Part shown: piece by piece, positions 7,447-57,745 of the stretch | Position numbering within the stretch: the stretch's first letter is position 1 | Layout of the letters: each line of letters starts with the position of its first letter | Assembly: GCA_009746045.1 (NCBI GenBank) | Contig: RPFO01000104.1 | Coordinates: 3,488,534 to 3,552,533, forward strand | Reading direction: 5' to 3' | DNA: 64,000 bases | Source of the DNA: Mesostigma viride | Taxonomy: Eukaryota > Streptophyta > Mesostigmatophyceae > Mesostigmatales > Mesostigmataceae | Notes under the pieces: model-generated | What the model saw: only the letters and a program-made list of their open reading frames with translations | What the model was told of the DNA's origin: nothing | Databases searched by the model: none | Made by a program: the position numbers and the translations under genes

Positions 7447-7735
7447 CCAGCCCAGTTTGAGCACCGCATCCACTCTCTCTCCCGTCTTTGGACTGCCATG
7501 CAGGACAAGACGCGGTGGAAGAAGATTGTCAAAGCGCACACGCCCGACCCTGTGGGCAAGCCACCTCCCCCCAAGCGGCGGAGGCGTTTTGATGAGTAGT
7601 GTAGTTAGGATTTTCTAGATAGAGTTAGGATAGTTCGATCACGCGGCTTCCCCCACCCCATCCATCATGGAATCTGTGCTACATGACCTCCCCACGGAGG
7701 CATGTTATAATTTAATTTAATTTAATACAATACTT
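7447..7735 (+). mobile_element. LINE 3' fragment, type-2 end (C terminus + hairpin + AATT-rich tail)
   Basis: The frame ending at the TAG at 7,597-7,599 encodes HRIHSLSRLWTAMQ, then KKIVKAHTPDPVGKPPP and a basic end. This is nearly the same C terminus as the LINE copy ending at about 56,604. The 3' UTR contains GTGCTACATGACCTCC-CCAC-GGAGGCATGT, a hairpin at 7,681-7,705, followed directly by TATAATTTAATTTAATTTAAT. The element is 5'-truncated. Confidence 0.65.
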
Positions 7736-7945
7736 CATGCGTCCAGACATAGTTGTCTCACTTCCTATACTTCTGACCACGAGGCTCCACGCTGATGATT
7801 ATGTGTTTGCCAAGGCTCAGGATGCCAACCTTGCATCGCACCTTACAGGTCAGCTGACGTAAGGTATTATTTCCCGTCCACAGTATATTCCAGGCTCTCC
7901 TCGCGAGTAGTTATTTTTTTATTGCGACGGCTTGTGTGCCCCCAT

Positions 7946-8205
7946 CCGTCCATCCATCCATCCATCCGTCCGTCCGTCCGTCCTAGCCATCCGTCCGTCC
8001 GTCCGTCCGTCCGTCCGTCCGTCCGTCCGTCCGTCCGTCCGTCCGTCCGTCCGTCCGTCCGTCCGTCCGTCCGTCCGTCCGTCCGTCCGTCCGTCCGTCC
8101 GCCCGTCCGTCCGTCCGTCCGTCCGTCCATCCGTCCGTCCGTCCATCCGTCCGTCCGTCCGTCCGTCCCTTTGTCCATCCATCCATCCATCTGCATCCAT
8201 CCATC
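7946..8205. repeat. CGTC/CATC tetranucleotide satellite
   Basis: Mostly pure TCCG repeats (about 50 copies) edged on both sides by TCCA variants. Long frames on both strands (TDGR-type and PSVR-type) are simple products of the repeat, not genes. Confidence 0.95.
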
Positions 8206-8216
8206 CATCGGGGTTA

Positions 8217-8424
8217 ATGCTCCGTGACTCCCCAACGGGAGCACGAGTCTAATTAATTAATTAATTCAACTCGTGCTCCCTTTGGGGAGTCACGGAGCAC
8301 CGAAGTGCTTTTAATCCCTGTGTGTGCACAACATGCAGGAGAAAGGGCAGAGATCGACCCCCAGTCTCCTTCATGCCTAAGGCATGCCACAGCTGCACTT
8401 GTCTCTCGCCACTTGGGTCCCCAA
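8217..8424. mobile_element. Two type-1 LINE 3' ends joined tail-to-tail
   Basis: A plus-strand 3' terminus (GCTCCGTGACTCCCCAACGG...) runs into AATTAATTAATTAATT. Immediately after comes the minus-strand terminus of the same family (GTGCTCCCTTTGGGGAGTCAC) and about 130 bp of its 3' UTR, including ATCCCTGTGTGTGCACA and CTGGGGGTC complement. The whole junction is an inverted repeat centred on the AATT run at about 8,250-8,266. Confidence 0.7.
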
Positions 8425-10307
8425 GGAGGTGGCACCCCAAAAACCTTAAAACTTGACCCATGCTAATATCACTTGAATTTCAGTTGCACCATGCTAAATT
8501 ATGATTGGGGGCACTAAATAACATCTCTAGTGAGTTGTCCATGCACTTGTTGGGGGTACTACCCCCACATATACGCCAATATAGCGCTATAAATAGAAAA
8601 AGACGCTAATTAGGGCTATGTATGCCCCAGCCCATGCACTCATTTGTTGGCCAAAAAAAATGTAGCGTCTATAGTTCCCTGAGTTTGTAGCTTGCTGGGC
8701 TATTTACATCATGAAAATGACAAAACCTTGAACAGTTATTAATTTCCCCGCAAAAGTACCCTTTTTTTACCGGACATTGGGAATAAACATGTCATAAACA
8801 CTTCAGATTAGGCAACAAAATGTAGCGAAAATCCGGCTAACAGGGGGACAGCAGTGGTCCAAGTCCCAGGTCATTCCGACAAGTCTAGCTCAAGTTATTG
8901 CGTTTGGCGTGCTAAAACCTGAACATACGCTAAATGAGGTTTTTCTGTGTATAAGGCCACCTAGGCATCATGTTTTCCATCCAAGAAGCCAAAAAACATG
9001 CCCAACTCGATCACACAACATAAGAAAAGGCTAGGCACCTCATCTGCCCTCCCCTGCCCTCAGCATGGCCAGCCTTGCCAGCGTGCGCATAGCAACACCA
9101 TCGCTAGGCATACACGCACCAAGAGAGCATACAATAAGCTCAGCCCAAGGTTACCACGTAAATTTATGCCAAGAACTCAGCAAGTATACGTGTAAAAACC
9201 TTAGAAAGACTGCCCAAGCAATAGAGGCAACTGCAGCCTGCAAACTTGGCAGCAAATCATACATGTTGTATGCCAAGCATTCACATCCTATCCAGCTTGC
9301 CTTGCTGCACACATAGCAGGGAAGTCTTAATGGTTATAGCTCAAGGAAAGCAATGGAAACACCTATCTAATGCAATGCCACTCATGCAGTATGGCCAGCA
9401 AAAGAACCACTCTCACCTTCCTTTCCAATAGGGCAATTTGCTAAGAAGCTGATGCCAGCTTGTTAGCCTCTAGGCACATGCCGGATGTCGTTCTAAAACA
9501 GGCGTGTCAGATCCGGCACATAACAAAGCGTCTGAGCAAGGTCACGTCCAAAGGATTATGGAAAACAAATGTCAACACATTACCAACAACTTGACCTCGG
9601 CGCATTTAGCATGCCAGCCACAAACTACACGAAATTGTACGAAATAGCTAGGAATCTGACGATGCAACCGAAAGAAATGGAGCGCTTCCTGCAGGGAAAC
9701 TGCCCGAAAAAAAGGCGAAAGGCCGACGTTAATGCACCTGCCTGCGTGGAAATGTTTCATGCATAAACTGGCACGCAAGCTCGAACAATAAAAGACATCA
9801 TCCATTGATCAGGCGAACAAGGAAGGTGCGCCTTCCGTGAATACGTCGAAGGCGACATGCGCAGGCCTGCGTAGGTTCTTACCTTGAATGCCGGAAATGT
9901 AAAAGAAACCGGGAAGCTTCGGCACAAACTCGACAACACCATTAAGTTAGCTTCATAATCGCTCTTTAGAGCCTACGTTGCCTCACAATAGCTGCCGTAA
10001 ACCTGCATTAAATTTCATGATCCGCAAGAGAAATTATATCCTGGACCCCCGCGCCCGTAGCCGTTCGAGAAATTAGCGATATTGCAAACCGTAAACTTTC
10101 CGCCACGCAATGAGGTCATCAACTAACCTTCTGCGAAATTCAAGCATTTTTTCTAGCTGTTTACGTGCCATATCGATTAATATTGCATAAAGGCATGCCG
10201 CCATGGCCACTTCCGCGAGGGTTGAGCGGTCCGGGCACACATTATACACCGTACGGACGGTACCGCGAATTTTTTGGCGCGGAAAATATTCGGCGCGCCA
10301 CGTCCCC
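8425..10307. mobile_element. TTAA-associated non-autonomous element, copy 1
   Basis: A ~1.88-kb unit nearly identical to the one at 10,321-12,189 (offset about 1,895 bp). Start GGAGGTGGCACCCC and end GCGCGCCACGTCCCC look like weak inverted termini. Only short ORFs are present. The most protein-like is a minus-strand 43-codon frame near the right end containing ARKQLEKMLEFRRRLVDDL. A diverged inverted copy at 52,034-54,308 has clearer 16-bp termini and TTAA flanks, which supports a DNA-transposon origin. Confidence 0.6.
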
Positions 10308-10320
10308 AAAGGAGGCTTGG

Positions 10321-12189
10321 GAGGTGGCACCCCAAAAACCTTAAAACTTGACCCATGCTAATATCACTTGAATTTCAGTTGCACCATGCTAAATTATAAT
10401 TGGGGGCACTAAATAACATCTCTAGTGAGTTGTCCATGCACTTGTTGGGGGTACTACCCCCACATATACGCCAATATAGCGCTATAAATAGAAAAAGACG
10501 CTAATTAGGGCTATGTATGCCCCAGCCCATGCACTCATTTGTTGGCAAAAAAAAATGTAGCGTCTATAGTTCCCTGAGTTTGTAGCTTGCTGAGCTATTT
10601 ACATCATGAAAATGACAAAACCTTGAACAGTTATTAATTTCCCCGCAAAAGTACCCTTTTTTTACCGGACATTGGGAATAAACATGTCATAAACACTTCA
10701 GATTAGGCAACAAAATGTAGCGAAAATCCGGCTAACAGGGGGACAGCAGTGGTCCAAGTCCCAGGTCATTCCGACAAGTCTAGCTCAAGTTATTGCGTTT
10801 GGCGTGCTAAAACCTGAACATACGCTAAATGAGGTTTTTCTGTGTATAAGGCCACCTAGGCATCATGTTTTCCATCCAAGAAGCCAAAAAACATGCCCAA
10901 CTCGATCACACAACATAAGAAAAGGCTAGGCACCTCATCTGCCCTCCCCTGCCCTCAGCATGGCCAGCCTTGCCAGCGTGCGCATAGCAACACCATCGCT
11001 AGGCATACACGCACCAAGAGAGCATACACTAAGCTCAGCCCAAGGTTACCATGTAAATTTATGCCAAGAACTCAGCAAGTATACGTGTAAAAACCTTAGA
11101 AAGACTGCCCAAGCAATAGAGGCAACTGCAGCCTGCAAACTTGGCAGCAAATCATACATGTTGTATGCCAAGCATTCACATCCTATCCAGCTTGCCTTGC
11201 TGCACACATAGCAGGGAAGTCTTAATGGTTATAGCTCAAGGAAAGCAATGGAAACACCTATCTAATGCAATGCCACTCATGCAGTATGGCCAGCAAAAGA
11301 ACCACTCTCACCTTCCTTTCCAATAGGGCAATTTGCTAAGAAGCTGATGCCAGCGCTTGTTAGCCTCTAGGCACATGCCGGATGTCGTTCTAAAACAGGC
11401 GTGTCAGATCCGGCACATAACAAAGCGTCTGAGCAAGGTCACGTCCAAAGGATTATGGAAAACAAATGTCAACACATTACCAACAACTTGACCTCGGCGC
11501 ATTTAGCATGCCAGCCACAAACTACACGAAATTGTACGAAATAGCTAGGAATCTGACGATGCAACCGAAAGAAATGGAGCGCTTCCTGCAGGGAAACTGC
11601 CCGAAAAAAAGGCGAAAGGCCGACGTTAATGCACCTGCCTGCGTGGAAATGTTTCATGTATAAACTGGCACGCAAGCTCGAACAATAAAAGACATCATCC
11701 ATTGATCAGGCGAACAAGGAAGGTGCGCCTTCCGTGAATACGTCGAAGGCGACATGCGCAGGCCTGCGTAGGTTCTTACCTTGAATGCCGGAAATGTAAA
11801 AGAAACCGGGAAGCTTCGGCACAAACTCGACAACACCATTAAGTTAGCTTCATAATCGCTCTTTAGAGCCTACGTTGCCTCACAATAGCTGCCGTAAACC
11901 TGCATTAAATTTCATGATCCGCAAGAGAAATTATATCCTGGACCCCCGCGCCCGTAGCCGTTCGAGAAATTAGCGATATTGCAAACCGTAAACTTTCCGC
12001 CACGCAATGAGGTCATCAACTAATCTTCTGCGAAATTCAAGCATTTTTTCTAGCTGTTTACGTGCCATATCGATTAATATTGCATAAAGGCATGCCGCCA
12101 TGGCCACTTCCGCGAGGGTCCACATTATACACCGTACGGACGGTACCGCGAATTTTTTGGCGCGGAAAATATTCGGCGCGCCACGTCCC
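10321..12189. mobile_element. TTAA-associated non-autonomous element, copy 2
   Basis: The second tandem copy differs from copy 1 by rare substitutions and small indels (for example GCGC added near 11,355, and a short deletion near 12,119). Its right end ...CGCCACGTCCCC is followed directly by TTAA, then by LINE ORF1 sequence (GGTGGAGGGCAAG...). This matches insertion at a TTAA within a LINE. Confidence 0.65.
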
Positions 12190-12905
12190 CTTAACCTGGT
12201 GGAGGGCAAGTGCGGCGTGCTCATGAAGAAGCTTGAAGCCATCACCGCCCACACCGAGGCCCCTGGCCTCACAGGTCCCCAAGATAGCGGAGCAGACGAC
12301 CACCATCGCATCCCAGCCACCCCGGCGGGATGCTGGCGACCTCACGCCGCTCTCCTACGCGGACCTGCTGCGATCAGCGACCGCCTCCACCACTGACGCC
12401 ATCGCCACCAAGCTCCAGGAGCTGGAGGACCACCGCCAGGCCCAGCAACGGGAGGTCACCGACCGCGCCCGCCGCGAGTGCCGAGTGGTGCTACGTCGCT
12501 TCCCCCAGAAGCCAGATGAGACGTCAACCTCCCGGCCTTGCTGACGAGCTCAAGAACCTGAGCTTCTTACCCTCATGGGCGTGGTATGAGGTGATGTAGA
12601 ATTACGAGGGTGCCACCGCCTTCCCCACTCACGGGACAAGGCGGCCCCCCCACCAGTCCTGCTCACCTTCCCCTCCCCTGAGGATAAGCAGCGGAACCTT
12701 CCTCTCTCGTCGCAAGAGGTTGCACGACCTCACCTGGACGCTGGACGACGACCTGACCCCCGCTCAGCAGCAGCAGCGACGCGACCCGTGTGGCCGGAAT
12801 ACCTCCGCCATAAGCAGGACCCCCAGAAGCCCAAGGTGTAGTACTGGAGGGGCGGGGACCTGATGATCAACCATGCACAAGATATGGACGCCCCCAGCGG
12901 GCTAG
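12190..12905 (+). pseudogene. LINE ORF1-like protein, type 1, frameshifted
   Basis: Fragments in shifting plus frames give LMKKLEAITAHTEAPG, then DLTPLSYADLLRSATAST, ELEDHRQAQQREVTDRARRE and RVVLRRFPQKPDETS. Further on come PPVLLTFP-like and DDLTPAQQQQ segments, then KAQGV/DLMINH remnants. The best-preserved relative is at 56,829-57,229. The RRM-like block followed by a conserved C-terminal block resembles L1-type ORF1 RNA-binding proteins. Several indels break the frame, and its left edge is interrupted by the TTAA element. Confidence 0.6.
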
Positions 12906-13392
12906 AATAGCAATAGTCCTAGCTTGTATCCATTGGTAGTCAATGCCGCTCTGGCAGCCATGCTTAGAATGTCTGCCTCGCTGTGCCAACATAGTCACGT
13001 GCACGGCTAACGCACGGTACACAACCAGCCATAGCCTAGTCCTAGTACGTACAGTCATGCTACGTCCTGGCTATGATCAGTTTACTAGCCATAACCTTAG
13101 CTTAGTCCTTGTACAGCCATGCTACGTCCTGGCTACGATCAGATTACTTGCTTACGCTCCTTGTTATGATATGCTCGTGAACATGGGTCTTATTGCACCC
13201 ACAGACTGCCGGATCGTTAGCGTGTCCGTTTAGCTAGCGTGCCCGGCATGCACGGCTGTGGCATGCCTTTAATTGGCATGAAGGAGACTGGGGGGCTCTG
13301 CCCTTTCTCCTGTTGTGCACACACAGGGATTAAAAGCACTTCGGTGCTCCGTGACTCCCCAACGGGAGCACGTTTTTAATTTAATTAATTCA
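12906..13392 (+). mobile_element. Type-1 LINE 3' UTR, terminal hairpin and TTAA-rich tail
   Basis: The UTR begins TAGAATAGCAATAG and contains GGTCTTATTGCACCCACAGA, CTTTCTCCTGTTGTGCACACA and GGGATTAAAAGCACTTCGG. It ends in the hairpin GTGACTCCCC-AA-CGGGAGCAC at 13,351-13,371, then a TTTAATTTAATTAATT tail. The same order recurs at 55,030-55,470. Confidence 0.65.
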
Positions 13393-13904
13393 TTAATGCC
13401 ACAGCTGCATTCGGGCACGCTAACGATCCGGCAATCTGTGGGTGCAATAAGACCCATGTGAGCATGGCATAACAAGGAGCGTGGGCGAGTAAACTGATCA
13501 CAGCCAGGGCGTAGCATGGCTGTACAAGGACTAAGCTAAGGCTACATGGCTGGTTGTGTACCGTGCGTTAGCGGTGCACGTGACTAGGTATGTTGGCCGG
13601 CACGGCTAGTCAAACGTTCTAAGCATGGCTGCCATAGCGGCAGTGACTACCAGTGGATACAAGCTAGGGCTATGCTAGTCTAGCCCGCGGGGGGCGTCCA
13701 CATCTTGTGGTTGATCATCAGGTCCCCGCCCCTCCAGTACACCTTGGGCTTCTGGGGGTCCTGCTTGTGGCGGAGTACTCCGGCCACAGGTCGCGTCGCT
13801 AGCTGCTGCTGCTGAGCGGGGGTCAGGTCGTCGTCCAGCGTCCAGGTGAGGTCGTGCAACCGCTTGCGACGAGAGAGGAACCGCTGCTTGCGAAGAATAC
13901 ACAT
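13393..13904 (-). pseudogene. Type-1 LINE 3' part, inverted relative to its left neighbour
   Basis: Read on the minus strand from 13,904 this gives SRRKRLHDLTWTLDDDLTP, ...QDPQKPKVYWRGGDLMINHK and MWTPPAG, then the type-1 3' UTR through GGTCTTATTGCACCCACAGA. It stops about 100 bp short of the usual hairpin, at the AATT run shared with the plus-strand copy. The pair therefore forms a large tail-to-tail inverted repeat. Confidence 0.6.
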
Positions 13905-14285
13905 ATTAATTAATTAATTAATTAGAAACATAACTCCGTTGGGAGTACATGTAGCACATAGTCCCTGAGAAGGGGCATATGGCTTTTAATACATTCTGGG
14001 CTACTTCCTGCAAGGGTGGGAATGTAAGCGACCCTTGCTCTATAGGTGCACCAGGGCACCTGCACCCTCATAATCTTCACACTATGCCCAGCTAAGGGGG
14101 AGTATGTTATGTGGGGGAAGATCATCATGGCTATACGAGAGCTAGGACATGGCTTCTCGACAGAGAGCATCTCTCTGCATGGCATAGCATGGCTAAATTC
14201 TTAATGCAACATCCATGGGGGTCCCATTATAGGCATGGCTTGGCTAAATTCTGAAGGCAACATCCATGGGGGCCATTAATACACA
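13905..14285 (-). mobile_element. Type-3 retroelement 3' end (SINE- or LINE-tail-like)
   Basis: On the minus strand this runs from GGCCCCCATGGATGTT repeats through TCTGTCGAGAAGCCATGTCC, CAGGTGCCCTGGTGCACC and TATTAAAAGCCATATGCCCC to the hairpin ACTCC-CAAC-GGAGT (about 13,931-13,945) and an AATTAATTAATT tail. Relatives lie at 28,300-28,735 (minus) and 57,400-57,740 (plus). Confidence 0.6.
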
Positions 14286-14289
14286 TATG

Positions 14290-16340: not shown

Positions 16341-16356
16341 ATGACAGTGATTAAGG

Positions 16357-17450: not shown

Positions 17451-17468
17451 GGAGAGGCCAAGGAGTAC

Positions 17469-17858: not shown

Positions 17859-17934
17859 CTGCGGGGCATGCAAACAGGACATTGAGATCAACCATTTGAG
17901 AATGAGATGAAAACTTGAGATCAACTAAGATTCA

Positions 17935-18939: not shown

Positions 18940-19389
18940 TAGTAGTATTACTATAGTGGTATACTAGTAGTAGTATACTTGTAGTAGTACTACCATAGTA
19001 GTATAGTAGTATTACTATAGTAGTATAGTAGTATTACTATAGTAGTATTTGGAGTCCATTAGTTAATCGTAGGAGCCCTGAGATCGGAAAACGCGTGCGC
19101 TGCAACGCCGCACAGCAGGCGGAGAAAATTTGTAGATCAAGCAAAACAAAGGTAAATAATTCTTTTTAAGCCATGGTTATTGTCAGGGGTGGGGGAGAGG
19201 AGACACCAGGATGGATAGGTCATGAAGGGATGCCGTGTGTGACAACTGCATGCCACAAAGAAGTGCATGCCTCTCATTGTTCCATGACCCCGTGGCATAT
19301 ATATATTTCATGAATCTGCGTCCTCGTGGCCTCTGTCTACTTTATAAAGTTCCGTGCCCTCCCCACAGAGGCACCAGACTATGTAACCA

Positions 19390-28189: not shown

Positions 28190-28299
28190 CCATACCCGTT
28201 CCTAGTCATGCCATGCTCCTTCCTAGTCATGCCATGGTCGTTCCGAGTCATGCCATGGTCGTTCCTAGTCATGTCACTCCCGTTCCTAGTCATGCCATT
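28190..28299. repeat. 21-bp minisatellite, left segment
   Basis: Five copies of GTTCCTAGTCATGCCATRSYC-type units. The array resumes at 28,740. Confidence 0.9.
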
Positions 28300-28735
28300 A
28301 ATTAATTAATTAATTAAAATGATAGCTCCGTTGGGAGCATATGTAACACATAGCCCTGAGAAAAGGGCATCTATGGGTTTGTAATACAATCAGGGCTACA
28401 ACCTGCAGGTGGAGGATGTACAACTGTCACCTGCTCTGGGTGCACAAGGTGCACCTGCACCGCCATGATGGTTCATGCCTCCTTAACAAGCACAGGCACC
28501 CAGGGGGGGGCTTGAGGAGAGGGCCTAGAAGGCCTGCATGACATATGGGGTGGAGGGTATGTGGCTAGGCTATAGCTGGTGTACACATGGCATCTCAGCA
28601 GAGAGTAACTCCCTGCATAGGCATCGCATGGCTAAATTCTTAATGCATCATCCATGGGAGGTCCCATTGTAGGCTGGGCGCGGCTAAATACTGAAAGCAT
28701 CATCCATGGGGGCCATTATGGGCGCACATGCGCGT
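28300..28735 (-). mobile_element. Type-3 retroelement 3' end inserted in the minisatellite
   Basis: From the right it reads GGCCCCCATGGATGATG, then CAGGTGCACCTTGTGCACC, and the hairpin GCTCC-CAAC-GGAGC at about 28,325-28,340. It ends in a TTAATTAATTAATTAA tail. The 21-bp minisatellite lies on both sides, so the element landed inside it or was carried by it. Confidence 0.6.
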
Positions 28736-28739
28736 GGGC

Positions 28740-29560
28740 CACGTCATGCCATACCCGTTCCTAGTCATGCCATGGCCGTTCCTAGTCATGCCATGGTCGT
28801 TCCGAGTCATGCCATACCCGTTCCTAGTCATGCCATGCCCGTTCCTAGTCATGCCATACTCGTTACTAGTCATGCCATGCCCGTTCCTAGTCATGCCATA
28901 CCCGTTCCTAGTCATGCCATACCCGTTCCTAGTCATGCCATACCCGTTCCTAGTCATGCCATGCCCGTTCCTAGTCATGCCATGGCCGTTCCTAGTCATG
29001 CCATGCCCGTTCCTAGTCATGCCACACCCGTTCCTAGTCATGCCATGCCCGTTCCTAGTCATGCCATACCCGTTCCTAGTCATGCCATACCCGTTCCTAG
29101 TCATGCCATACCCGTTCCTAGTCATGCTGTACACGCTCCTAGTCATGCCACACCCGTTCCTAGTCATGCCATACCCGTTCCTAGTCATGCCATGGTCGTT
29201 CCGAGTCATGCCATACCCGTTCCGAGTCATGACATACTCATTCCTAGTCATGCCATACCCGTTCCTAGTCATGCTGTACCCGTTCCTAGTCATGCCATGG
29301 TCGTTCCGAGTCATGCCATACCCGTTCCGAGTCATGACATACTCATTCCTAGTCATGCCATACCCGTTCCTAGTCATGTTGTACACGTTCCTAGTCATGC
29401 CACACCCGTTCCTAGTCATGCCATGCCCGTTCCTAGTCATGCCATGCTCTTTCCTAGTCATGCCATACCTGTTCCTACTTCCTAGTCATGCCATACCCGT
29501 TCCTAGTCATGCTGTACACGTTCCTAGTCATGCCATGCCCGTTCCTACTCATGTCATGGT
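28740..29560. repeat. 21-bp minisatellite, main segment
   Basis: About 38 copies of CCATACCCGTTCCTAGTCATG with variants (CCATGGTCGTTCCGAGTCATG, TGTACACGTTCC...). The heptapeptide frames (HAIPVPS, MTRNGYG, FLVMPYP) are repeat products. Confidence 0.95.
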
Positions 29561-30050: not shown

Positions 30051-30054
30051 CATT

Positions 30055-30450
30055 TAATTAATTAATTAATACCACGTGACTGCGTGAGCAGTATCCTCAT
30101 GAAGGGAATGGATGACATGCGAAAGAAACTATCTAAGCACGGGTAGCAGGATTGTGGGCCCCGCGGCCGGTGGCACTGTGCCGACCGTAGCGGGTTACCC
30201 GAGGTGCCCCTACCGGACATTAATTAATTAATTAATAGACACGTGACTGCGTCACGTGAGCATAAGTCCTCAGTGGGAGGGGAACATGGGATGGAATGGA
30301 TGGTATAAGCTATCTAGGTCCTAGTTACAGGGGTGTGGGCACCGCGGCCCGAATCGCTATGAATGCCATACTTGGTCACACGCGGAGCCCCCACAGACTT
30401 GGGGGTGGTCTCCTTCATCACTACTTGCCATCTATCCTTGCGCACCATCT
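30055..30450 (-). mobile_element. Two type-4 retroelement 3' ends
   Basis: Two AATTAATTAATTAAT runs (30,054-30,070 and 30,219-30,235) are each followed by CACGTGACTGCGT.. hairpin-like sequence. The second, CACGTGAC-TGC-GTCACGTG, is a perfect palindrome with a 3-nt loop. It is followed by minus-strand 3' UTR ending in CCCCCACAGACTTGGGGGTG. A plus-strand copy is at 51,800-52,033. Confidence 0.5.
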
Positions 30451-30469
30451 GCCTTAATATTACAGACTA

Positions 30470-30520
30470 CCGGACATGTGTTACGTGATCTCCCAACGGA
30501 GTAACGCTTCAATTCAATGC
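30470..30520 (+). mobile_element. Type-2-like 3' terminus
   Basis: GTTACGTGAT-CTCC-CAAC-GGAG-TAAC at 30,480-30,504 followed by GCTTCAATTCAAT. This is the terminal hairpin without the upstream LINE body. Confidence 0.45.
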
Positions 30521-31218: not shown

Positions 31219-38190
<6,972 letters not shown>

Positions 38191-41070: not shown

Positions 41071-41405
41071 TTTTGACAAGGTTGACAATTGACAAGGTTG
41101 ATTGAGGAGTACAGACTAGGTAGTAAAGACCTGCTAAGCTTCGGATAAAATAATTAACGACGACACGTAAGCCCTATGTTTGGAAACGATGCAGGGATTA
41201 CCGCGGTAAGGCAACAACTCGCAACTCCGGAAGATTTTGCTGCTCGGGGTTGCCCGATTCGAAGCCTAAATTTTGCGCATGTACGAGGCGCCCTCCTCTC
41301 TTTCTTATCCGGGAAACGAAATTAGTTGGTCATCCGACGATGTAGTCATGTGCCTTGCAGCTATCTGCTAAAGAATTGGGGTCACCCTGCTCTCCCGTCT
41401 TCACC

Positions 41406-43076
41406 ATGGGCGATTTCGGCGTTTTCCCGTTCCTGCTGGCCTTGCAACAATGCGAGGACGAGGCGGACTTGACAAAGCTGCTCCTTTTACAGGAGGCCAG
41501 GAGAATCGACATGATGCGCCGGCTCACTGAGATTCTGTCGCATTCCCCCGATGCGCTCCTGCTGGCCTCCGAGCCCAGCCCCCGGAGACACCATATCGTG
41601 CCCCGGGCCAACAACTTCGCCCAAGACATGGAATTCTGGATGCGGGAAGACCCCGCGCTCGCGGACGTGCAGCTACGAAAGGTCTGCCACGTGTCCCTGG
41701 ATAGCTTCAAGTACCTCCTCCGCAAAGTCGCGCCCATGCTGGAACGTCAACTCCCCGGAGAAAGCCGCGCTGTCCGCGCGGACGTTGTTCCCCCCCTGGT
41801 CATGCTCATGGGCTTTCTCGAGCACTGCGCCCACGATTTTGGGTACGGCGCTCTCGAGAACGTCTACGGCGTCGCCGCCAACACGTGGTCTAAAAACGGC
41901 GACCGTCCCGGGATCATCCGCGAGGTGCTCGCAGCACTCCGTACTTTACTCCTCGACGGCATAAACCACTCCCACGGCCCCGAGATTTCTTTCGACCCAC
42001 ACCCTGATTCCATCCGCCGCCACTGCGCCGAGTTCCAGCAGCTCTTCGGCCTCCAGGGATGCTGCGGGGCCTTGGACAGCACGCTGGTCCAGGTCCAGCG
42101 CCCGACGCAGGACCACGCGGCCGATGCCGGCACCGCCCCCGAGGACTACCAGGTTTACGGCTCCAAGGAGCAGTACGCGCTAAAAATACTCGCAGCCGTT
42201 GACGCGCGCGGCCGGTACACGTGGCTGGATGCAGGCGCACCAGGGTCCCTGGCCGACGCGGACGCCTGGTCCCGCAGCGGCCTGCGTGCCGCGTGCCGCC
42301 AGGGGGGCGGGACCGCTTTGGACTCGGTTCGCATCGATCTTGGACCAGGAACCTCGGACTCTGTTCCTCCGGCTCACCCTGACCACGCTACATCGACGGC
42401 AGTGTCATCCAGGGTGCCATATGTTGACCAAGGCTCATCGTCCTTGCTGAATTCCATGGTGCCCGGTCAAGGGTCGTCGGCACCGGCATCCGTCACGCCG
42501 GATCTTGGGTCGACTGCGGCAACCCATTCCATCACGCCCTATTTCGTGACGGATGCCGGCTTCCCCCTAACGGACGACCTCATGAAGCCGTTCGAAGACC
42601 CGCGCCCGGGCAGCCCGGAGGAGGCGCTCAACTACCTGCTGGTGCGCGCGTGGCGGCTGGTCGGTGACACCATCGGCAGGACCAAGGCCAAGTGGAAGGT
42701 GCTGTACCATAACCGCTCCGTGCGCGACCCGAGCCACATGGCGGAGCTCGTGCGGGTCCTCTGTGCACTCTATAACTATCTCGCACGTCACGAGGGGGTG
42801 GAGAGCTTCCATGAGCTCGACGAGGCCGGGCCGAATTGGCGGCGGGATGCCGGCATCCTTGTTCCGCCCAATTACCGGCCGGCGGAGACGCACGCTGACT
42901 ATGGGGAACAGGAGGCGGTTCGTTCCGCCCTCCTCAAGCGCCGCACACTCACGCCCGCGGCCCGCGAGTATTGTGTTCGGGAGGGGTTGTATGGGCCGTC
43001 GCCGCGGCTGGAGTGGGACGTGGATTACAACGTGCCGCTCCGGGCAGACGGGCAGCCGGTGCCAGTCAGCCGATAG
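41406..43076 (+). CDS. HARBI1-like (PIF/Harbinger, DDE_Tnp_4) protein, intact single exon
   Basis: An uninterrupted 556-codon ORF. The ATG at 41,406 (TCACCATGG context) is preferred; the open frame extends upstream only without ATG. The N-terminal helical region has [20 protein letters not shown] and [13 protein letters not shown]. The nuclease-type core has [12 protein letters not shown] (Asp near residue 223), [20 protein letters not shown] and [10 protein letters not shown] (Asp near 283). After a Ser/Pro-rich insert of about 80 residues come [14 protein letters not shown] and [15 protein letters not shown], then [19 protein letters not shown]1-family nucleases use Asp-Asp-Glu. At the usual Glu position before (F/I)G.(L/T)K.(R/K)W I read Gly followed by Asp, so activity is doubtful. 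The intact frame with no obvious inverted repeats could be a domesticated gene or a recent non-functional copy. It lies just outside the MULE end. Confidence 0.8.
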
Positions 43077-44309: not shown

Positions 44310-44700
44310 TTAATTAATCGAACACATGCTCCCGTTGGTGAGTAAAGTCCCTGTGTGTGCACAGCAGGAAGAGACACCCCCCCCCTTCCTCATGCCCCTG
44401 GCGTGCCACAGGTGCAATCGGACACGTCTGACGATCCGGCATCCACTGTGGGTGCAATAAGACCCGTGTGCAAGCATTGCCTTACTATGGAGGCACACGT
44501 TAACAAACAAGCGGTGCTAGGTGGTAAATGATTACTAGGCTGTCTGGGATCAGTTGGTCTACTGGCTAGGCCATATAGGCATGGCTATTCCTTCCACCAT
44601 GCATGAGCATTGCACATGGCATGTCTAGGAGTGTGTCCAGGTACATATGCATCACGTAAACATGGGTATGACTACAATGGCTGTGGCTAATCTAGCCCGT
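44310..44700 (-). mobile_element. Type-1 LINE 3' UTR and degraded terminal hairpin
   Basis: A TTTTTAATTAATTAAT tail at about 44,303-44,319 is followed by a mutated hairpin (GCTCCCGTTGGTGAGTAAAG) and minus-strand 3' UTR including GGTCTTATTGCACCCACAGT. Confidence 0.6.
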
Positions 44701-45951
44701 GGGGGGCTTCCACAGCTAGTTGTTGATCATCAAGTCCCCGCCCTTCCAGAAAACCATGGGCTTTTTGTGGCCTTGCTTGTGGCGAATCGGTATTCCGGCC
44801 ACAGGTAGCGCCGCTGCTGCTGCTGAGCGGGGGTCACATCGTCATCCAGCGTCCAGGGTAGGTCGTGCAACTTCTTGTGGCAAGAGAGGATCAAACCACC
44901 GCAATATCCTCAATTTCCTAGTATCCTCCATGGAGCTAGCCTTATCCTCCATGGAGAGCTCTGAAGGTTAGCAGGACTGGTGGCCGGGGTGCCGCTTTGT
45001 CCCGTGAATGGGGAAGGCAGTGCCCCCGCAGCTCTACTTCACCTTCTAGGTCCAGGTGGGTAAGAAGCTTGCAGTTGCACCTGAGCTCGTCCTCAAGAGA
45101 GGTTGCCGTCTTCCCCGGTTGCTGGGGGAAACGACGCAGCACCACGTGGCCTCAGTGGCGGCGGGCGCGGTTGGTGGCCTCGCGTTCGTCTGCCCGGCGA
45201 TGGGCTTCCAGCTCCTGCAGCTTCGTGGCGATGGCGTCCGTGGTTGAGGTGGTCGCTGACCACAGCCGGTCATCATAAGCCGGAGTGCGGCGAGAGGTCA
45301 CCAGCTGCCTGCCGGATGACCAGGATGGGCAGCAATCAGGTGGCCGTCATGCGCCGCGATCTTCGGGACCTGCGTGGCCATTGCCTCGGTTTGGGCGGTG
45401 ATGCATGGCTTCGAGCTTCTTGATGAGCAGGCAAATTGACCTTGCCCTCCACCCATGTGGTTTAGGCGAGACAGTAGGGCGGCATGTATACATCAGAAGC
45501 CTGCGTCGCGGTCTGCAGCGCCGTGAGCTGGGCTGGTTGGAGCGTTGTGTTGTTGGCAACCTTGGTTTCCGCATTGGAGCCCCTGGCATCCACCGTGTTG
45601 AGCGTCATGGTACCGATGTCAGCTTCTTGGCCAGCAGCTGGGTCACGTGCTCCTCTGGACAGCTAGCACTGTGCGGATGTCATCATCGTTGTGCAAGAGG
45701 GATCGAGGGAGCCGGTGTGGCTCCAGGGTGGGGGCTGGGTTGTGTCCGCCGTCCAGCGCGATAAGCCGGTCGTGCTCATTGAGCTGAAAAAAGCTGGTCA
45801 GGATAATCAGGCGCTGGAGCATCTCTGACGCATTGAAAAGCAACTCAAAGTACGGCTTAATTTTGTAATAGTCGAAAGCCTGAGACCCGGGCCTTGAGCA
45901 AAACAATCTTGTGTTAATTAATAAGCCCGTGACTGCGTACATGGGTGCCAA
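44700..45951 (-). pseudogene. Type-1 LINE ORF1 copy with N-terminal part, frameshifted
   Basis: Minus-strand pieces from 45,951: LFNASEMLQRLIILTSFFQL, NEHDRLIALDGGHNPAP, LLHNDDDIRTVLAVQ; then LLIKKLEAMHHRPNRGNG; then a VVSPSNRGRRQP-type RRM-like block; then LHDLPWTLDDDVTPAQQQQ and a degraded GGDLMINN end at about 44,700. It retains more of the N terminus than the other copies. Several frameshifts are present. The order and strand match the 3' UTR at 44,310-44,700. Confidence 0.55.
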
Positions 45952-47040: not shown

Positions 47041-47059
47041 CCCACCATGCAGGCCTGGA

Positions 47060-47540
47060 AGGGATCTAGACCGCATGGGTCGCGACAAAGTCGGCCCGGG
47101 TGCGGCGGAAAAACACATCAGCCACGGTGCGAGTGAGGGCGAGTGACAGGCGCTGCCGCCAATATACGAGGACCACGTGCAGGCAGACCACGGGGCGGTC
47201 TGACCCTCGAGGTCAAGGCGGTCTTCACGGCGCTGGCAGCAAGCTCGTGGAAAAACTCCGCTGTCTTGGGGCCCATGGCCCCGAACTCCTCAAGGACAAA
47301 TGGGATTCGACCCATGCAGTGGGGCCCCACTGACATTGCCGTATAGGAGGCGAACTTGTCGCTCTCAGCCACAGCGGCAGCAGCGCCGGCATCCACATCC
47401 GCTCGGAGGATGTGGCGACCGGAGAGCAGCCGAGCCACGGAGACATCGATGAGCAGGTGGCAACCCTGCCCGTCGTAGTCATTAAGCACGGTAATGTCGG
47501 GGCGGTGGTTGGGTGAGTAGATCGAGGGCGGCCCCATCCG
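47060..47540 (-). pseudogene. LINE C-terminal nuclease-like domain, second copy
   Basis: Minus-strand frame with YSPNHRPDITVLNDYDGQGC, HLLIDVSVARLL, IPFVLEEFGAMGPKTAEFF, then (in another frame) YWRQRLSLALTRTVADVFF and a stop near 47,070. It matches the 4.8-5.3 kb copy residue for residue in the PD...D region. It is 5'-truncated and carries a frameshift near 47,190. Confidence 0.6.
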
Positions 47541-47674
47541 CGTCCTCGCACTAGTTGATGGTGCATGGAGTGGGGATCAGTCGAAAGACCGACCGAACTG
47601 ATGGCACACACCAGTCCCGGAGGAGAGCGGTATATGGACTATAGAGGAACCAGTTCTGGTTCTGCTGGCCACCA

Positions 47675-48800: not shown

Positions 48801-49139
48801 ACCATATATGCACGCGATGTAGTGCTTCCCAGTTCGAGAGCAAGCCCGCAGCTGCCGCAGGACGCACCGGGGCCCCGCTGTGATGAGAGGTTGCGGGGCA
48901 AACAGCTGGTGGCGGAGAGCGATGGCGTAAAGGGCCGGAACCAGCGTGAACAAAGGGCCCAGTATATATTCTGACACTCAGAATGATAAATTACGGAGGT
49001 GAGAGTCACTGGCATGCAGCATAGCTCCCCGAAAATAAGAACCCTAACCCCAGTACTCAATTACATTATCGATATATTGTGACAAGCATGCATGCACACG
49101 TACCGGCGAGGCTTCCGCGAGCCACGAGTGGACATGGCT

Positions 49140-49700: not shown

Positions 49701-50039
49701 TCCATGTCGACGACCACGACTGGACTGCAAGTACATGTCCCCAACTGCCCTGCCCTGCCCTGCATCTTCTACGGGGACTACGCCTCGCTTTTATGAGCTG
49801 TGCCGCCTCCATCTCCACAGCATATCAACCGCCTCATCCAGCCGGACGGCACCTAGTGCCCCGCCACTTTGGTGACGGACTGCATGTGGCACCCCCCCCA
49901 TTGAACTCCAGCACATCCGGCATCAGTTCTCTAGCTGCTCCCTCGCTCACGCGCGCTCTGATGCCGGTGAGATCTGGGCTCCTTCCATTTCGACGCATCC
50001 ACCTTCCGCTCCCTCCGGCCTTAACTCCCTCGAGCAGCC

Positions 50040-50345
50040 TGCAGGCCCTCGAGCAGCCTGCAGCACGTCGGACTCCCCTCGCTGCAGATCATGTGGCAGC
50101 AATGGGCAGCACGCTGGCTGCATGCTGGGCTCTCGGCCTCACCTTTCCACCTGACCGTCACCTCCACCTCCACCCTCCTCGATCGCTTCCACCTCCACTG
50201 CCACCACTGCATCCACTGCCGGTCTGCCGCCACATCATGCCGCCCAGCTCCTCGACATCGACAAGCGCCTCCACGACAACGCCATCGCCATTAATTAATT
50301 AATTAACTAACTAATTAATTAATTAATTAATTAATTAATTCATTC
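50040..50345 (+). pseudogene. Probable LINE ORF1 N-terminal fragment with TTAA tail
   Basis: A plus frame contains STATTASTAGLPPHHAAQLL and DIDKRLHDNAIA and runs into a TTAATTAATTAATTAACTAA tail. The assignment rests on the tail and Ser/Thr-rich composition only. Confidence 0.3.
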
Positions 50346-50600
50346 ATTCATTAATTAGACTCGTGCCCCCGTTGGGGAGTCACGGAGCACCGGAGTGCTG
50401 TTAATCCCTGTATGTGCACTGTCAACAGGAAGAAAGGGCAGAGACACCCTTGCTCCTTCATGCGAGAGGCATGCCACAGCTGCAATCGGACCCGATAAAC
50501 GATATATCCCGGGGGCAATAAGACCCATATATCCCGGGGGCAAGATATCTGTGGGGGCAATAAGACCCATGTGAGCATATCATAACAAGGAGCGTGGCCG
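50346..50600 (-). mobile_element. Type-1 LINE 3' end, tail-to-tail with left neighbour
   Basis: After the shared AATT/ATTC run comes the hairpin GTGCCCC-CGTT-GGGGAGTCAC (about 50,364-50,384), then minus-strand 3' UTR with a duplicated ATATATCCCGGGGGCAA block. Confidence 0.6.
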
Positions 50601-50689
50601 GCAAGTAATCTGAGCATATAGCTGCTGCATGCATGCCGCTGTGGCGCTGTCAAGCGCGACAAGTTTGCCTTATATGGAAATTCATGTGG

Positions 50690-51000
50690 GGCGCCCCACC
50701 GGGTAATCCCCCGTTCGTCCTTGACGAGTTTGGAGCCGATCATTGGGCCCGTTTGTCCTTGACGGCGGAGATTTTCCACGAGCTGCCAGCGGCATATGAA
50801 GACCGCCTCAATCGACCTCGATCGAGGGTCCGACTGCCCCGTGCATGCATGTTCTGCCCGGACGTTGTGCTCGTATTGGCGCCAGCGCCTGTCCCTTGCC
50901 CTCACTCGCAAGTCGCACCGCCGGATGTGTGATTCCGCTGCATCCGGGCCGACAGTCTTTGCATCCCGACCCATGCGGTCTTGATTCGTCCCACGCCTGG
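50690..51000 (+). pseudogene. LINE C-terminal nuclease-like domain, third fragment
   Basis: Plus frames give PPFVLDEFGA, LTAEIFHELPAAYEDRLN and TLCSYWRQRLSLALTR, equivalent to the end of the domain at 4.8 and 47.1 kb. Frameshifted, with the PD...D region missing. Confidence 0.5.
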
Positions 51001-51009
51001 TGCATGGCG

Positions 51010-51720
51010 GCAGTGAATGTTGCTGCGTGGCCATCGTAGTTTTGTGTTGTAGTTAGTTGTACCTTGTGCTGGCTTGATCCTTGCATGCCCGTGTCAGAAT
51101 AAATTATTATATTCTTTAGGGCTCTCCTTCTTTTCGGGGTTGTCCTTAATTAAGTTGCATGCGCATCTCATGTGCAGGTCTCCGTATTTTATGATTCTTA
51201 ATGAAAATATGAGGGTTTTGTGGGTGAACGTCCTAGGTATTCGGCCCGTACAAACCCAGATTCAACGGACCTTTTCATTCTTCTCCCAAGTCCCAAACTG
51301 TCTCTATAGCTTTGTCCTTACCTGGACTCCCCCTGGCGTGCCCAGCCAGGCCGCCACCCATGGACCGGACGTTCCATAAGGTGAGTGAACGACTCGAAAA
51401 CGCGGACAAGATAATTAACGGCAGGCTCGAGCTACCATGGTCCGGATTCTCTTGATTTCTGGCCTGCGCTGACCTTGTCTCCTTGATAAGGTGAGTAGAG
51501 ACGAGACATGTGCTAGCACAGGCGCCTGCTGGGCCTACTATAGCAGGGCACCCATGGCCCGCACAGATCATGTAGACACATCAGATAGACTAGCTGGCAC
51601 CAAGCCCGCCCAGCCTGGACGTTACATATGTCCTCACCTGGCGGGCCCCAGGCCGCGCGCGGCATGGCCGCCACCTGTGGACTTTCCGTGATATAGCAGA
51701 CTAGGCTTGGACATGTGCTA
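51010..51720. other. No recognised gene
   Basis: Contains an imperfect duplication around GGTGAGT(G/A)...GACGAGAC and CTGGCGNGCCCAG. No domain. Confidence 0.4.
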
Positions 51721-51729
51721 CCCTATAGA

Positions 51730-52033
51730 CGAGACGGGCTCACACCCGGGCAGCCTCCTGGTTTGTCTGTCATATGGAGGCAGATGGCTCGCAAGGATAG
51801 TAGATGGCAAGTAGTGATGAAGGAGACCACCCCCAAGTCTGTGGGGGCTGTCAGAGTCCGCGTGTGACCGCGTATGGCATTCATAGCGATTCGGGCCATG
51901 GTGCCCACAACCCTGTCACTAGGAACTACTAGATAGCTAGCATCATCCATTCCATCCCATGTTCCCCTCCCACTGAGGACTTCTGATCGATCACGTGACG
52001 CAGTCACGTGTGACGTGTCTATTAATTAATTAA
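51730..52033 (+). mobile_element. Type-4 retroelement 3' end
   Basis: Plus-strand CACCCCCAAGTCTGTGGGGG, then CCCATGTTCCCCTCCCACTG. The palindrome CACGTGAC-GCA-GTCACGTG (about 51,993-52,011) is followed by TATTAATTAATTAA. It is the inverse of the 30.2-30.45 kb copy. The TTAA element starts directly in its tail. Confidence 0.6.
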
Positions 52034-54308: not shown

Positions 54309-54329
54309 TTAATTAATTTATTTGCTAGC

Positions 54330-55040
54330 CCCGGGAAATTCCCAGCTCGTCGGTGCCAGGCCGCACGCACACGGATTTATCAATCGTCTCATCATTGGCC
54401 ACACAGGTCCCAAAGCTAGCGGAGCAGACGGCCACCATTGCCTCCCAGCCACCCCGGCAGGATGCTGGTGACCTCCCGCTCTCCTATATGCGGACCTGCT
54501 GCGGTCAGCGACCGCCTCCACCACCGACGCCATCGCCACGAAGCTCCATGCAGGAGCTGGAGGCCCCACCGCCAGGCCCAGCAACGGGAGGTCACCGATC
54601 GCGCTCGCCGCGAGTGCCGAGTGGTGCTACGTCGCTTCCCCCAGAATTAGCCAGGTGAGACGTCAACCTCCCTTGCCTGACGAGCTCAAGAACCCTCATG
54701 GGCCTGGTAGGTGAGGTAGAACTGCGTGGATGCCACCGCCTTCCCCACAGTCTCACGGGACAAGGCGGCCACCCCACCAGTCCTGCTCACCTTCCTCTCC
54801 CCTGAGGATAAGCAGCGGTTCCTCTCTCGTCGCAAGCGGTTGCACGACCTCACCTGGAGTCACGCTGGATGACGACCTAACCCCCGCTCAACAACAGCAG
54901 CGATCGACGCGACCTGTGGCCGGAATACCTCCGCCATAAGCAGGATCGACCCCCAGAAGCCCAAGGTGTACTGGAGGGGCGGGGACCTGATGATCAACCA
55001 CAAGATGTGGACGCCCCCAGCGGGCTACTGGCTAGAATAG
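54330..55040 (+). pseudogene. Type-1 LINE ORF1, frameshifted copy
   Basis: Plus frames give QVPKLAEQTATIASQPP, QREVTDRARRECRVVLRRFP, then SRRKRLHDLTW, LTPAQQQQ and GGDLMINHKMWTPPAG with stray insertions (for example GATCGA duplications near 54,903 and 54,946). Confidence 0.6.
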
Positions 55041-55475
55041 CAATAGCCCTAGCTTGTAACCATTGGCGTCACTGCCGCTAAGGCAGCCATGCCTAGAATG
55101 TTTGCCTAGCTGTGCCAACACACCTAGTCATGTGCCGCCAACGCACGGTACACAACCAGCCATAGCCTTAGCCTACTAAGTCCTAGTACAGCCATGCTAC
55201 GCCCTGGCTATGTTCAGATTACTTGCCCACGCTATACTTGTTATGCTACGCTTACATGGGTCTTATTGCACCCACAGTATGCCGGATCGTTAGCGTGTCC
55301 GTTTAGCTAACGCGCGCCCGATTGCGGCTGTACGTGGCATGCCTTTGGCATGAAGGAGACTGGGGGTCTCTGCCCTTTCTCCTGTAGTGCACACACAGGG
55401 ATTAAAAGCACTTCGGTGCTCCGTGACTCCCCAACGGGAGCACGAGTTTAATTAATTAATTAATTAATTAATTAA
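55040..55475 (+). mobile_element. Type-1 LINE 3' UTR, hairpin and TTAA tail
   Basis: TAGAATAGCAATAG through GGTCTTATTGCACCCACAGT and GGGATTAAAAGCACTTCGG. The hairpin GTGACTCCCC-AA-CGGGAGCAC at 55,423-55,443 is followed by seven AATT repeats. The most complete 3' end of this family. Confidence 0.7.
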
Positions 55476-55719
55476 TCGTCTCATTCGTCTGGGGGCAGAG
55501 GACATGCAAGCCACAACGTACACCCATGCAAGTCTGTACGCGGTGGGGAAGATGCATGTGTGAGATGAAACATGGTAAACAAAGCAGTACGTTCGATCGG
55601 ACCGTGGGGTACGCAACCCGCGGTGACTAGAGACTTTAGATAGATCTACCTCGATCGTTAATTCTGGTGTGCACAACACTAGTTGTATAGTAGTACCACT
55701 ACACCATACGTGCTCTCCT

Positions 55720-56605
55720 ACGTACCCTCATCGAGCGCCCCGAGCACATTCAGACCGGGCTGGACTGTCTGGGCTTGGAGGCGCGGGCAGTGGGGTTGGA
55801 GATAATAGTGTCAAAATGGAGGCGATGGTGGTTGGGGCAACCAGTCGCCCGCCGCTGCCGCGGCTGCTAGACGGGAAGGAGGATGAGTTCCGTGATAGAT
55901 CGCTTCAAACTGCTGGGGAGCATGCTCCCTGACACCGCCGAGGATGTGGACATCCGCATCGGCCTGGCCTGGGCTAGGCTTCGTTCGCTCAAAACCTACT
56001 GGCACTAGCTCGAAGGCCCTGCATGCATGGGCGAGCACCGCAAGCCCATGCTCCTCAAGGTCTTGGTCCTCACGGTGCTCACCTATGGCGCCGAAGAATG
56101 GACGCTCACGGACACGCTGCATGGCCACACGGCTGAACGGCACAGTAACCAGGATGCTCCGCCAGGCCCTGAACCTAGGGTTTTCCACACATAGGTCCTT
56201 AGAATCTTTGTACCAGGGTATGCCTCGATCGCATTTCGGACGAGATTAGACAGCGTAGTAGGATAGCATTCGTAGGACATCTTGCTCGCACCAGTCAGGT
56301 AGACACCGACCTCGGTCTGGCCGGCCCCCAGCGGCTTGGCCAGCCATGCAGGGCGGCATGTCCTGACCTGGCCTGGCCCCAGGGACATTCCTAAAAGGGT
56401 AGGTAAACATGTCATGACCTACCCGGCACAGCAGTTGCTGGCTGACCTAGTGGTCCCAGCCCCGTTTGAACATCGCATTCACTCCCTCTCTCTTGCTTGG
56501 ACTGCTATGCAGAACAAGAAGATGTGTAAGACGATTGTCCAGGCTCACACGCCAGCCCCTGTGGGCAAGCCCCCTCCCAAGAGGAAGGGGCGCTTTGCTG
56601 AGTAG
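55720..56605 (+). pseudogene. Type-2 LINE reverse transcriptase C-terminal region
   Basis: Plus frames give DRFKLLGSMLPDTAEDVDIR, IGLAWARLRSLKTYW, HRKPMLLKVLVLTVLTYG and AEEWTLTDTL, the F-x-LGS...I..A..L...W...K..V...L.YG.E.W pattern after the RT thumb in many LINE proteins. Then TVTRMLRQALNLG and the C terminus QNKKMCKTIVQAHTPAPVGK with a TAG near 56,604. At least two frameshifts and an in-frame stop break it. Upstream RT palm motifs are absent, so the copy is 5'-truncated. The C terminus is shared with 7,447-7,599. Confidence 0.65.
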
Positions 56606-56760
56606 AGTATTGTTTTCTAGATTATAGATTAGCTTAGAGTGAGATTAGTTCGGTTTCGCGGCTTCGCTCACCTCCATCCATCCAGCAAGGGAATATGTGC
56701 TACATGATCTCCCAACGGAGTCATGTTATAATTCAATATTTAAGTTTTTAATACGTGCTC
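56606..56760 (+). mobile_element. Type-2 LINE 3' UTR and hairpin
   Basis: UTR with GCGGCTTCGCTCACCTCCAT. The hairpin ACATGAT-CTCC-CAAC-GGAG-TCATGT at 56,702-56,726 is followed by TATAATTCAATATTTAA. Confidence 0.65.
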
Positions 56761-56828
56761 TACACTCCACCATCCATCCCGGCCACCCTACTACTCATGG
56801 AGAATCCGGGCTGCATGGCTCCGAATCC

Positions 56829-57229
56829 GAGTGGTGCTACGTCGCTTCCCCCAGAAGCCAGGTGAGACGTCAACCTCTCTTGCTGACGAGCTCAAGAACC
56901 AGCTTCTTACCCTCATGGGCCTGGTAGGTGAGGTAGCACTGAGCGGGTGCCACCGCCTTCCCCACTCACGGGACAAGGCGGCTCCCCCACCAGTCCTACT
57001 CACCTTCCCCTCCCCTGAGGATAAGCAGCGGTTCCTCTCTCGTCGCAAGCGGTTGCACGACCTCACCTGGACGCTGGATGACGACCTAACCCCCGCTCAA
57101 CAACAGCAGCGACGCGACCTGTGGCCGGAATACCTCCGCCATAAGCAGGACCCCCAGAAGCCCAAGGTGTACTGGAGGGGCGGGGACCTGATGATCAACC
57201 ACAAGATGTGGACGCCCCCAGCGGGCTAG
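56829..57229 (+). pseudogene. Type-1 LINE ORF1 C-terminal two-thirds, best-preserved copy
   Basis: One open frame of 132 codons to TAG at 57,229: VVLRRFPQKPGETSTSLADE, LKNQLLTLMGLVGEVALSG, VLLTFPSPEDKQRFLSRRKR, LTPAQQQQRRDLWPEYLRHK and KVYWRGGDLMINHKMWTPP. The order (short beta-strand VVLRRFP, VLLTF..edk..flsrrk, then the R-R-x-L/KVYWRGG-DL block) resembles the RRM and C-terminal domain of L1-type ORF1 RNA chaperones. The 5' part is truncated, joined to unrelated sequence at about 56,825. Confidence 0.65.
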
Positions 57230-57745
57230 AATAGCAATAGCCCTAGCTTGTAACCATTGGCGTCACTGCCGCTAAGGCAGCCATGCCTAGAATGTTTGCC
57301 TAGCTGTGCCAACACACCTAGTCATGTGCCGCCAACGCACGGTACACAACCAGCCATAGCCTTAGCCTAGTCCTAGTACAGCCATGCTACGCCCTGGCTA
57401 TGTTTAGCCAAGCCATGCCATAATGGGACCCCCATGGATGTTGAATTTAGCCATGCTATGCCATGCATGAGAGATGCTCTCTGTCGAGAAGCCATGTCCT
57501 AGCTCTTGTATAGCCATGATGATCTTCCTCCCCCGTGCCAGGATCCCCCCCTTAGGCGGATTGAACCTGAGACAGCATGGTGGTGCGGGTGCCCTGGTGC
57601 ACCTAGAGCACGCGGGTAGCTTACATTCCCACCCTTGCATGAAGTAGCCTAGGATGTATTAAAAGCCATATGCCCCTTCTCAGGGATATGTGCTACATTG
57701 ACTCCCAACGGCCGGAGCGATGTTGATAATTAATGGCAGCTCGGG
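57230..57745 (+). mobile_element. Chimeric 3' end: type-1 UTR joined to type-3 terminus
   Basis: The first ~170 bp match the type-1 3' UTR (TAGAATAGCAATAG...CCCTGGCTATGTT). At about 57,400 it switches to the type-3 sequence (TAGCCAAGCCATGCCATAAT...ATTAAAAGCCATATGCCCC) and ends in the hairpin ACTCC-CAACGGCC-GGAGC at 57,695-57,723 and TTGATAATTAAT. Confidence 0.6.

Follow-up and report, generated by a model that had tools for sequence, protein, structure and literature searches.

The 3' ends of several different retroelements in the 64,000-nt stretch of Mesostigma viride DNA analysed here (the window) finish with a common hairpin, which is very probably a 3'-terminal recognition signal of stringent-type LINEs (elements with an apurinic-type endonuclease and a reverse transcriptase, RT) that is shared with non-autonomous partners. 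The loop of this hairpin is nearly fixed while the letters of its stem change together, and as such it is probably, on our analysis, a label through which the copying enzyme selects its RNAs. A previous sequence-only reading of the window had listed eleven hairpins and placed them at retroelement 3' ends, immediately before an AATT-type tail; all eleven were found, in that position, and a pattern search added a twelfth, absent from the first list, at the 3' end of an ORF1-bearing copy (44324-44348, minus strand). The limits given for the sites fared less well than the sites themselves, as the full hairpins overrun or shift at 13928-13952, 28320-28344 and 30483-30507. The elements are collected in Table 1. 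As a separate observation, the two hairpin ends that lie tail to tail around one common AATT array form an 82-bp near-perfect palindrome (8218-8299, 93%).

Table 1. Hairpin-ended elements of the window, and copies of a further AATT-tailed family that ends in another hairpin.
Element	Position	Strand	Hairpin	Composition and marks
fam1 LINE, 5'-truncated	7447..7728	+	7681-7705	ORF2 C-terminus, 3' UTR, TAATTT-type tail
fam2a LINE copy, 3' end	8222..8265	+	8222-8246	AATT tail; tail-to-tail with 8250..8393(-)
fam2b 3' module	8250..8393	-	8271-8295	AATT tail shared with 8222..8265
Element A, ORF1-bearing	12198..13397	+	13349-13373	ORF2 match absent; fam2b 3' module
fam3 short copy	13907..14277	-	13928-13952	AATT tail; 11-nt target duplication ATATGTGTATT
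fam3 short copy	28299..28742	-	28320-28344	Inside 21-bp satellite; 10-nt target duplication ATGGCATGAC
CACGTGAC-GCA-GTCACGTG family copy	30054-30168	-		
CACGTGAC-GCA-GTCACGTG family copy	about 30221-30466	-		
Hairpin of interrupted element	30483..30507	+	30483-30507	Nested AATT-tailed insertion at about 30221-30466(-)
Element D, ORF1-bearing	44310..45453	-	44324-44348	Decayed hairpin
fam2b 3' module	50330..50618	-	50361-50385	Long AATT array
CACGTGAC-GCA-GTCACGTG family copy	51765-52032	+		
Element B, ORF1-bearing	54393..55473	+	55421-55445	Flanked on each side by 11-nt target duplication AATCGTCTCAT
fam1 LINE	55724..56754	+	56702-56726	Frame-broken ORF2 remains, 3' UTR
Element C	56827..57734	+	57695-57723	B-type ORF1 body; junction with fam3 3' module at about 57402

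The combination of hairpin and tail is far from a chance occurrence. A strict hairpin-plus-AATT-tail pattern matched the window seven times and none of 100 dinucleotide shuffles, and GACTCCCCAACGGGAGC with up to three mismatches gave six matches against 0.17 expected; the 12-nt core CTCCCAACGGAG alone, with two mismatches, is weak evidence (nine matches, 4.3 expected). The window has 12 rows of long AATT arrays, or 11 arrays when two rows at 50.3 kb are counted as one; eight of these come immediately after the hairpin and three after a different one. A covariance model built from ten window sites and run with filters off returned 11 sites at E 1.2e-6 or better, these being the ten training sites and 55421, which repeats 8222, and the next match stood at E 0.003. 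The hairpin at 57695-57723 scored only E 0.16 because of its apical insertion. One model match, 19352-19376(+) at E 0.003 to 0.01, lacks an AATT tail and is not included among the elements. Among 140 apex sites in the window and the related loci, seven or more pairs form in 65 of the 67 that have an AATT-like tail and in 15 of the 73 that do not. Across the 439.9-Mb assembly the exact fam2 core occurs in at least 6,276 copies, and a second pattern with free arms, which fixes only TGTGYTAC, CTCCCAACGGAG and TAATT, gave 3,139 + 3,248 = 6,387 matches; the reversed-pattern control was 0 in both cases. Related loci sought in viral and prokaryote contigs were not found there.

The proposal that the hairpin is common to distinct families, and not the mark of one element, is borne out by its carriers, which comprise two LINE families and ORF1-coding elements with differing 3' modules. 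In the first LINE family, a 1032-aa ORF (L031:434-3529, minus strand) matches Exo_endo_phos (E 5e-7) and RVT_1 (E 1e-25), and the hairpin lies about 350 nt past the ORF2 end; at L033 the C-terminal frame stops about 390 nt before the hairpin, and at L032 there is a 463-aa ORF1 upstream, for which Pfam gave no significant match. Among PDB entries the ORF2 matches R2 (1e-12) and human L1 ORF2p (7e-12), values that do not separate RT clades, and searches of PDB with ORF1 and an endonuclease-like piece returned matches at E 0.1 or worse only. The second LINE family, recovered by tblastn with the first ORF2, is the source of the window fam1 ends: residues 33-1027 were matched at 44-59% in L039, and the identities were 43-62% in L037 and 41-50% in L041, with the fam1 C-terminus and the hairpin following the ORF2 match in each. 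The two families are thus 41-62% alike in the aligned pieces of ORF2, and the window fam1 C-terminus is 32% identical to the first family over 84 aa (E 6e-10). Within the window, the ORF2 remains at 55724..56754 match the fam2a ORF2 in three pieces (47-50% aa), the remnant at 7447..7728 matches the other fam1 copy at 72% over 36 aa (tblastn), and the string upstream of the hairpin at 8222..8265, ATCGGGGTTAATGCTCC, is identical to that of LINE copies. The copies differ in their 5' extent, and a simple string rule divided the first 30 loci into 17 with a LINE-type 3' UTR, eight with the fam2b module and five without assignment. Searched against Pfam, the frame-broken remains of ORF2 and ORF1 in the window gave nothing convincing (the best was an unrelated match, E 0.32); the RT identity of the carriers comes from their relatives only. 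A regular expression for the RT catalytic core had two matches in the window, neither of them RT-like.

The non-autonomous carriers are of a less familiar kind. Elements A, B, C and D contain an ORF1-like frame and have no ORF2 match by tblastn; this frame is distantly related to the LINE ORF1 (32% over 125 aa, E 1e-5) and is now broken in A, B and D. Its differences from C at codon positions 1/2/3 (A 4/2/11, B 2/2/5, D 19/16/29, and a fragment 0/0/7) form a pattern that points to a coding past. The body of C is 91.5% like that of B, and its 3' module also occurs in the 13.9-kb copy (83.6%) and in the one at 28.3 kb. Elsewhere, at L038/L027 (one place), L042 and L043, a fam3 module and the hairpin follow a related ORF1 with aa identities of 45-56% in its main pieces and 37% in one; over 870-1,230 nt these loci agree at 88-91%. 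Since both fam2b- and fam3-type ends are found on ORF1 bodies, the 3' modules are of two kinds or more, each ending in the hairpin. The sequence-only reading had called such carriers SINE-like, which is apt only in part: several of the carriers that are not LINEs encode ORF1. Nor did we find the tRNA-like Pol III head of a tRNA-derived SINE in the window, where ARAGORN predicted 0 genes and Rfam gave no tRNA match; at the gathering score no Rfam family matched the window at all, and at E up to 1 there were five weak matches to miRNA models only.

In its general form the hairpin has at most ten stem pairs closed by a loop of four nt, and a single bulged base in the 5' arm divides the stem in two. 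Folded examples are ACATG(A)CCTCC-CCAC-GGAGGCATGT, ACATGA(T)CTCC-CAAC-GGAGTCATGT and CCGTG(A)CTCCC-CAAC-GGGAGCACGA. The loop, expected to be usually CAAC, is indeed CAAC and sometimes CCAC at the window sites; together with the two C-G closing pairs the CAAC loop is nearly fixed, and the stem letters are variable. Individual sites depart from this form: the apex of 57695-57723 carries an insertion of 4 nt, the fold energy of 44324-44348 is -1.6 only, and 28320-28344 and 30483-30507, when folded alone, form the structure incompletely. A search of the loci that left the 4-nt loop free but included the tail found CAAC or CCAC in 63 of 70 tailed contexts (39 CAAC in the fam2 register, 17 CAAC and 7 CCAC) and CAAA in one. 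Because the search strings contain the loop, its conservation is partly built in; the loci were fetched by a fam2 core that includes it, and the loop-unbiased part consists of the fam1 and fam3 contexts only (17 and 7).

That the two sides of the stem change together, as had been asserted from the window, is strongly upheld by shuffling and re-dealing counts in the window, in the loci and in genome copies, even though the example first quoted for it does not survive folding. In ACATGAtCTCC/GGAGtCATGT the lower-case T's do not form a pair with each other; the one in the 3' arm is matched with the A, and the one in the 5' arm is bulged. The C/G version has C paired with G and a bulged A. The quoted change is a sliding bulge, and the real two-sided changes are located at other stem pairs. 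In an alignment of ten window hairpins there are 16 two-sided cells against 5.7 +/- 2.4 in shuffles (0/500), spread over five of ten pairs where 2.7 are expected (as high in 17/500 shuffles), and further pair types are not raised (8 vs 8.9 in shuffles). A larger alignment, fitted to the model and composed of 97 matches (27 distinct rows) from the window and 37 loci with some overlap, scored 0.428 for covariation, compared with 0.203 +/- 0.021 in shuffles, and slid versions of it reached 0.189 at most; paired cells amounted to 88.5% against 76.1 +/- 1.3 and two-sided cells to 42 against 15.5 +/- 3.3, with 0/500 shuffles as high on each of these measures. The number of pairs with a two-sided change was not raised there (5 vs 4.5). 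Because the copies are related, the cells are not independent, and changes shared by descent are counted repeatedly. The cleanest test of covariation is the free-arm genome set, in which four pairs were scored, the 3' arms were re-dealt and either of two bases was allowed at the bulge, in shuffles as well. Among 100 listed copies, the first of one contig, standard pairs were formed in 390 of 400 cases, compared with 335.6 +/- 4.1 on re-dealing (0/5,000), and the 26 distinct arm combinations among them gave 95 of 104 paired against 81.4 +/- 2.5. The pair 5-6' is seen in these copies as A-U, C-G, G-C, U-G and G-U, and the pair adjoining the bulge as A-U, U-A, G-C and U-G. Counting against this, the fam2 stem type alone showed no covariation (78 pairs vs 78.6 re-dealt, nine distinct). 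The eight distinct window hairpins alone gave a modest result, with 206 of 40,320 re-dealings equally or more stable.

Compensatory change of this sort reveals an RNA structure and not the partner of that structure, and the hairpin might instead act in the RNA 3' end (in 3' processing, stability, export or translation) with the RT reading only the AATT tail. The CAAC hairpin is not the sole route to such a tail, given that the three copies of a fourth AATT-tailed family in the window end in the different hairpin CACGTGAC-GCA-GTCACGTG; ends similar to this one also occur in L028 and L036. Against this account, which we consider unlikely, the CAAC hairpin is common to the 3' ends of LINEs and of ORF2-less elements and is kept beside the tail, and the arrangement is that of known LINE/SINE pairs, as described in the available part of PMC3747384.

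Plain common descent, on which several families received copies of a single ancestral 3' end whose hairpin now serves no purpose, could appeal to the roughly 35-70 terminal nt that fam1, fam2 and fam3 have in common by sequence. It is nonetheless very improbable, in that the arms have changed jointly at several pairs with pairing kept, and a model of sequence alone misses the other stem type. When two models were trained on the same five hairpins (fam1, fam3 and x only), the one with structure (R2) recovered five of six fam2 sites at E 1e-4 to 6e-3, missing 44324, whereas the sequence-only one (R3) recovered 0/6 at E up to 1. The structure model therefore carries over between stem types and the sequence-only model does not; R2 also gives the tail-less 19352-19376 an E of 0.007, near its weakest fam2 site.

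A feature of the DNA itself, namely an inverted repeat serving as insertion target or as the end of a DNA transposon, is scarcely credible: the AATT repeats are self-complementary and two tails do meet at 8250-8265, but the hairpin is found at the 3' end adjoining the tail, the elements have RT-coding relatives, and target duplications of 10-11 nt accompany some of them. Such duplications directly follow the AATT tail in three of the eight hairpin elements tested (B and the 13.9-kb and 28.3-kb copies), and none was found for the other five, namely A, C, D and two fam2b modules. Among 500 random segments, 3 to 11 gave matches as long as these, which were not required to lie exactly at the tail. 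The nested copy at about 30221-30466, which has the other hairpin, also shows an 11-nt duplication.

The window has further features that we record in their own right. Repeat copies (e.g. 12198-13090, 54396-55227 and 56827-57402) differ most often by 4-nt indels, which make up 57 of 208 indel contexts, some being the same event seen twice; 25 of the 57 are palindromic in some rotation (for instance GA to GATCGA and CA to CATGCA), compared with 10.6% of window 4-mers. A 1.9-kb direct tandem repeat (8425-10307 and 10320-12190, 98.7% identical) ends in GCGCGCCACGTCCCC, and 58966-62887 is taken up by about 155 tandem copies of a 25-bp unit. Two open frames at 31219-35563(-) have MULE transposase and SWIM domains, and a 573-aa frame at 41355-43076(+) is DDE_Tnp_4 transposase-like. 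A repeated frame with a HLLIDVSVARPL-type motif, at 47121-47576(-) and 4806-5339(-) and also in L020 and L030, gave no convincing Pfam match; presumably it resembles the C-terminal part of another retroelement.

The likeness to 3' stem-loops recognised by LINE RTs, suggested at first sight of the sequence, is supported by the covariation, by the structure model that crosses families and by the distinct carriers, and from these we infer recognition by the RT. Following established LINE biology, the endonuclease would nick the target, the AATT-type tail would pair with it, the ORF2 protein would bind the loop and stem of the hairpin, and first-strand synthesis would start from the tail repeats by target-primed reverse transcription. 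If the ORF2 protein does bind the hairpin to start copying, then any RNA carrying it should be copyable in trans, and non-autonomous elements may have spread through such an end, exchanging 3' modules and keeping the hairpin.

Recognition hairpins of LINEs are known from other organisms, and what is new is this clear, abundant and well-sampled case, made less ordinary by its sliding bulge and by riders that code for ORF1. To our knowledge, LINE 3' signals have seldom been defined by covariation. HAL1, the half-L1 elements of mammals, likewise code for ORF1 and are without ORF2, whereas the elements described here have a structured 3' hairpin and at least two 3' modules. Eel UnaL2 and zebrafish ZfL2-1/ZfL2-2, which belong to stringent-type LINE/SINE pairs, similarly have a 3'-terminal hairpin before short tail repeats; the present system differs in its CAAC loop, sliding bulge, AATT tail and several ORF1-encoding partners, and enzyme binding is presumed here. 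In ZfL2 the loop is specifically read and the stems are exchangeable, and a nearly fixed loop on a changing stem is what this behaviour predicts, as far as the accessible portion of the source goes (PMC4176376). In Chlamydomonas, SINEX elements paired with RandI (Dualen) and L1-1_CR are non-autonomous elements with LINE 3' ends, several of them (ATT)n-tailed; compared by description, they resemble our elements in having such ends, and what the consulted text reports is shared ends rather than a CAAC hairpin (PMC3747384). The plant L1 element LINE1-1_ZM and ZmSINE2/3 share a hairpin with compensatory changes that, in the portion of the same paper available, keeps the loop UCU and the 3' flank CGAG, in contrast to the CAAC kept here (PMC3747384). 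A literature search of largely openly accessible papers found no recognised description of the CAAC hairpin.

The thousands of natural variants can show which features are free (the stem letters and the position of the bulge) and which are nearly fixed (CAAC and the two closing C-G pairs), and such a map could guide binding assays directly. Riders that code for ORF1 and have two kinds of 3' module likewise offer a natural setting for the question of whether a template RNA is able to swap its 3' end and be copied by more than one LINE. More tentatively, and as a possibility to which we give only limited credence, LINE families of about half identity in ORF2 may share one hairpin code, so that cross-copying could occur, alongside a long-lived partner lineage that encodes ORF1, lacks ORF2, exchanges 3' modules and perhaps supplies its own ORF1 protein. 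If true, this would be a LINE system divided into complementing parts, and not a case of plain SINE parasitism.
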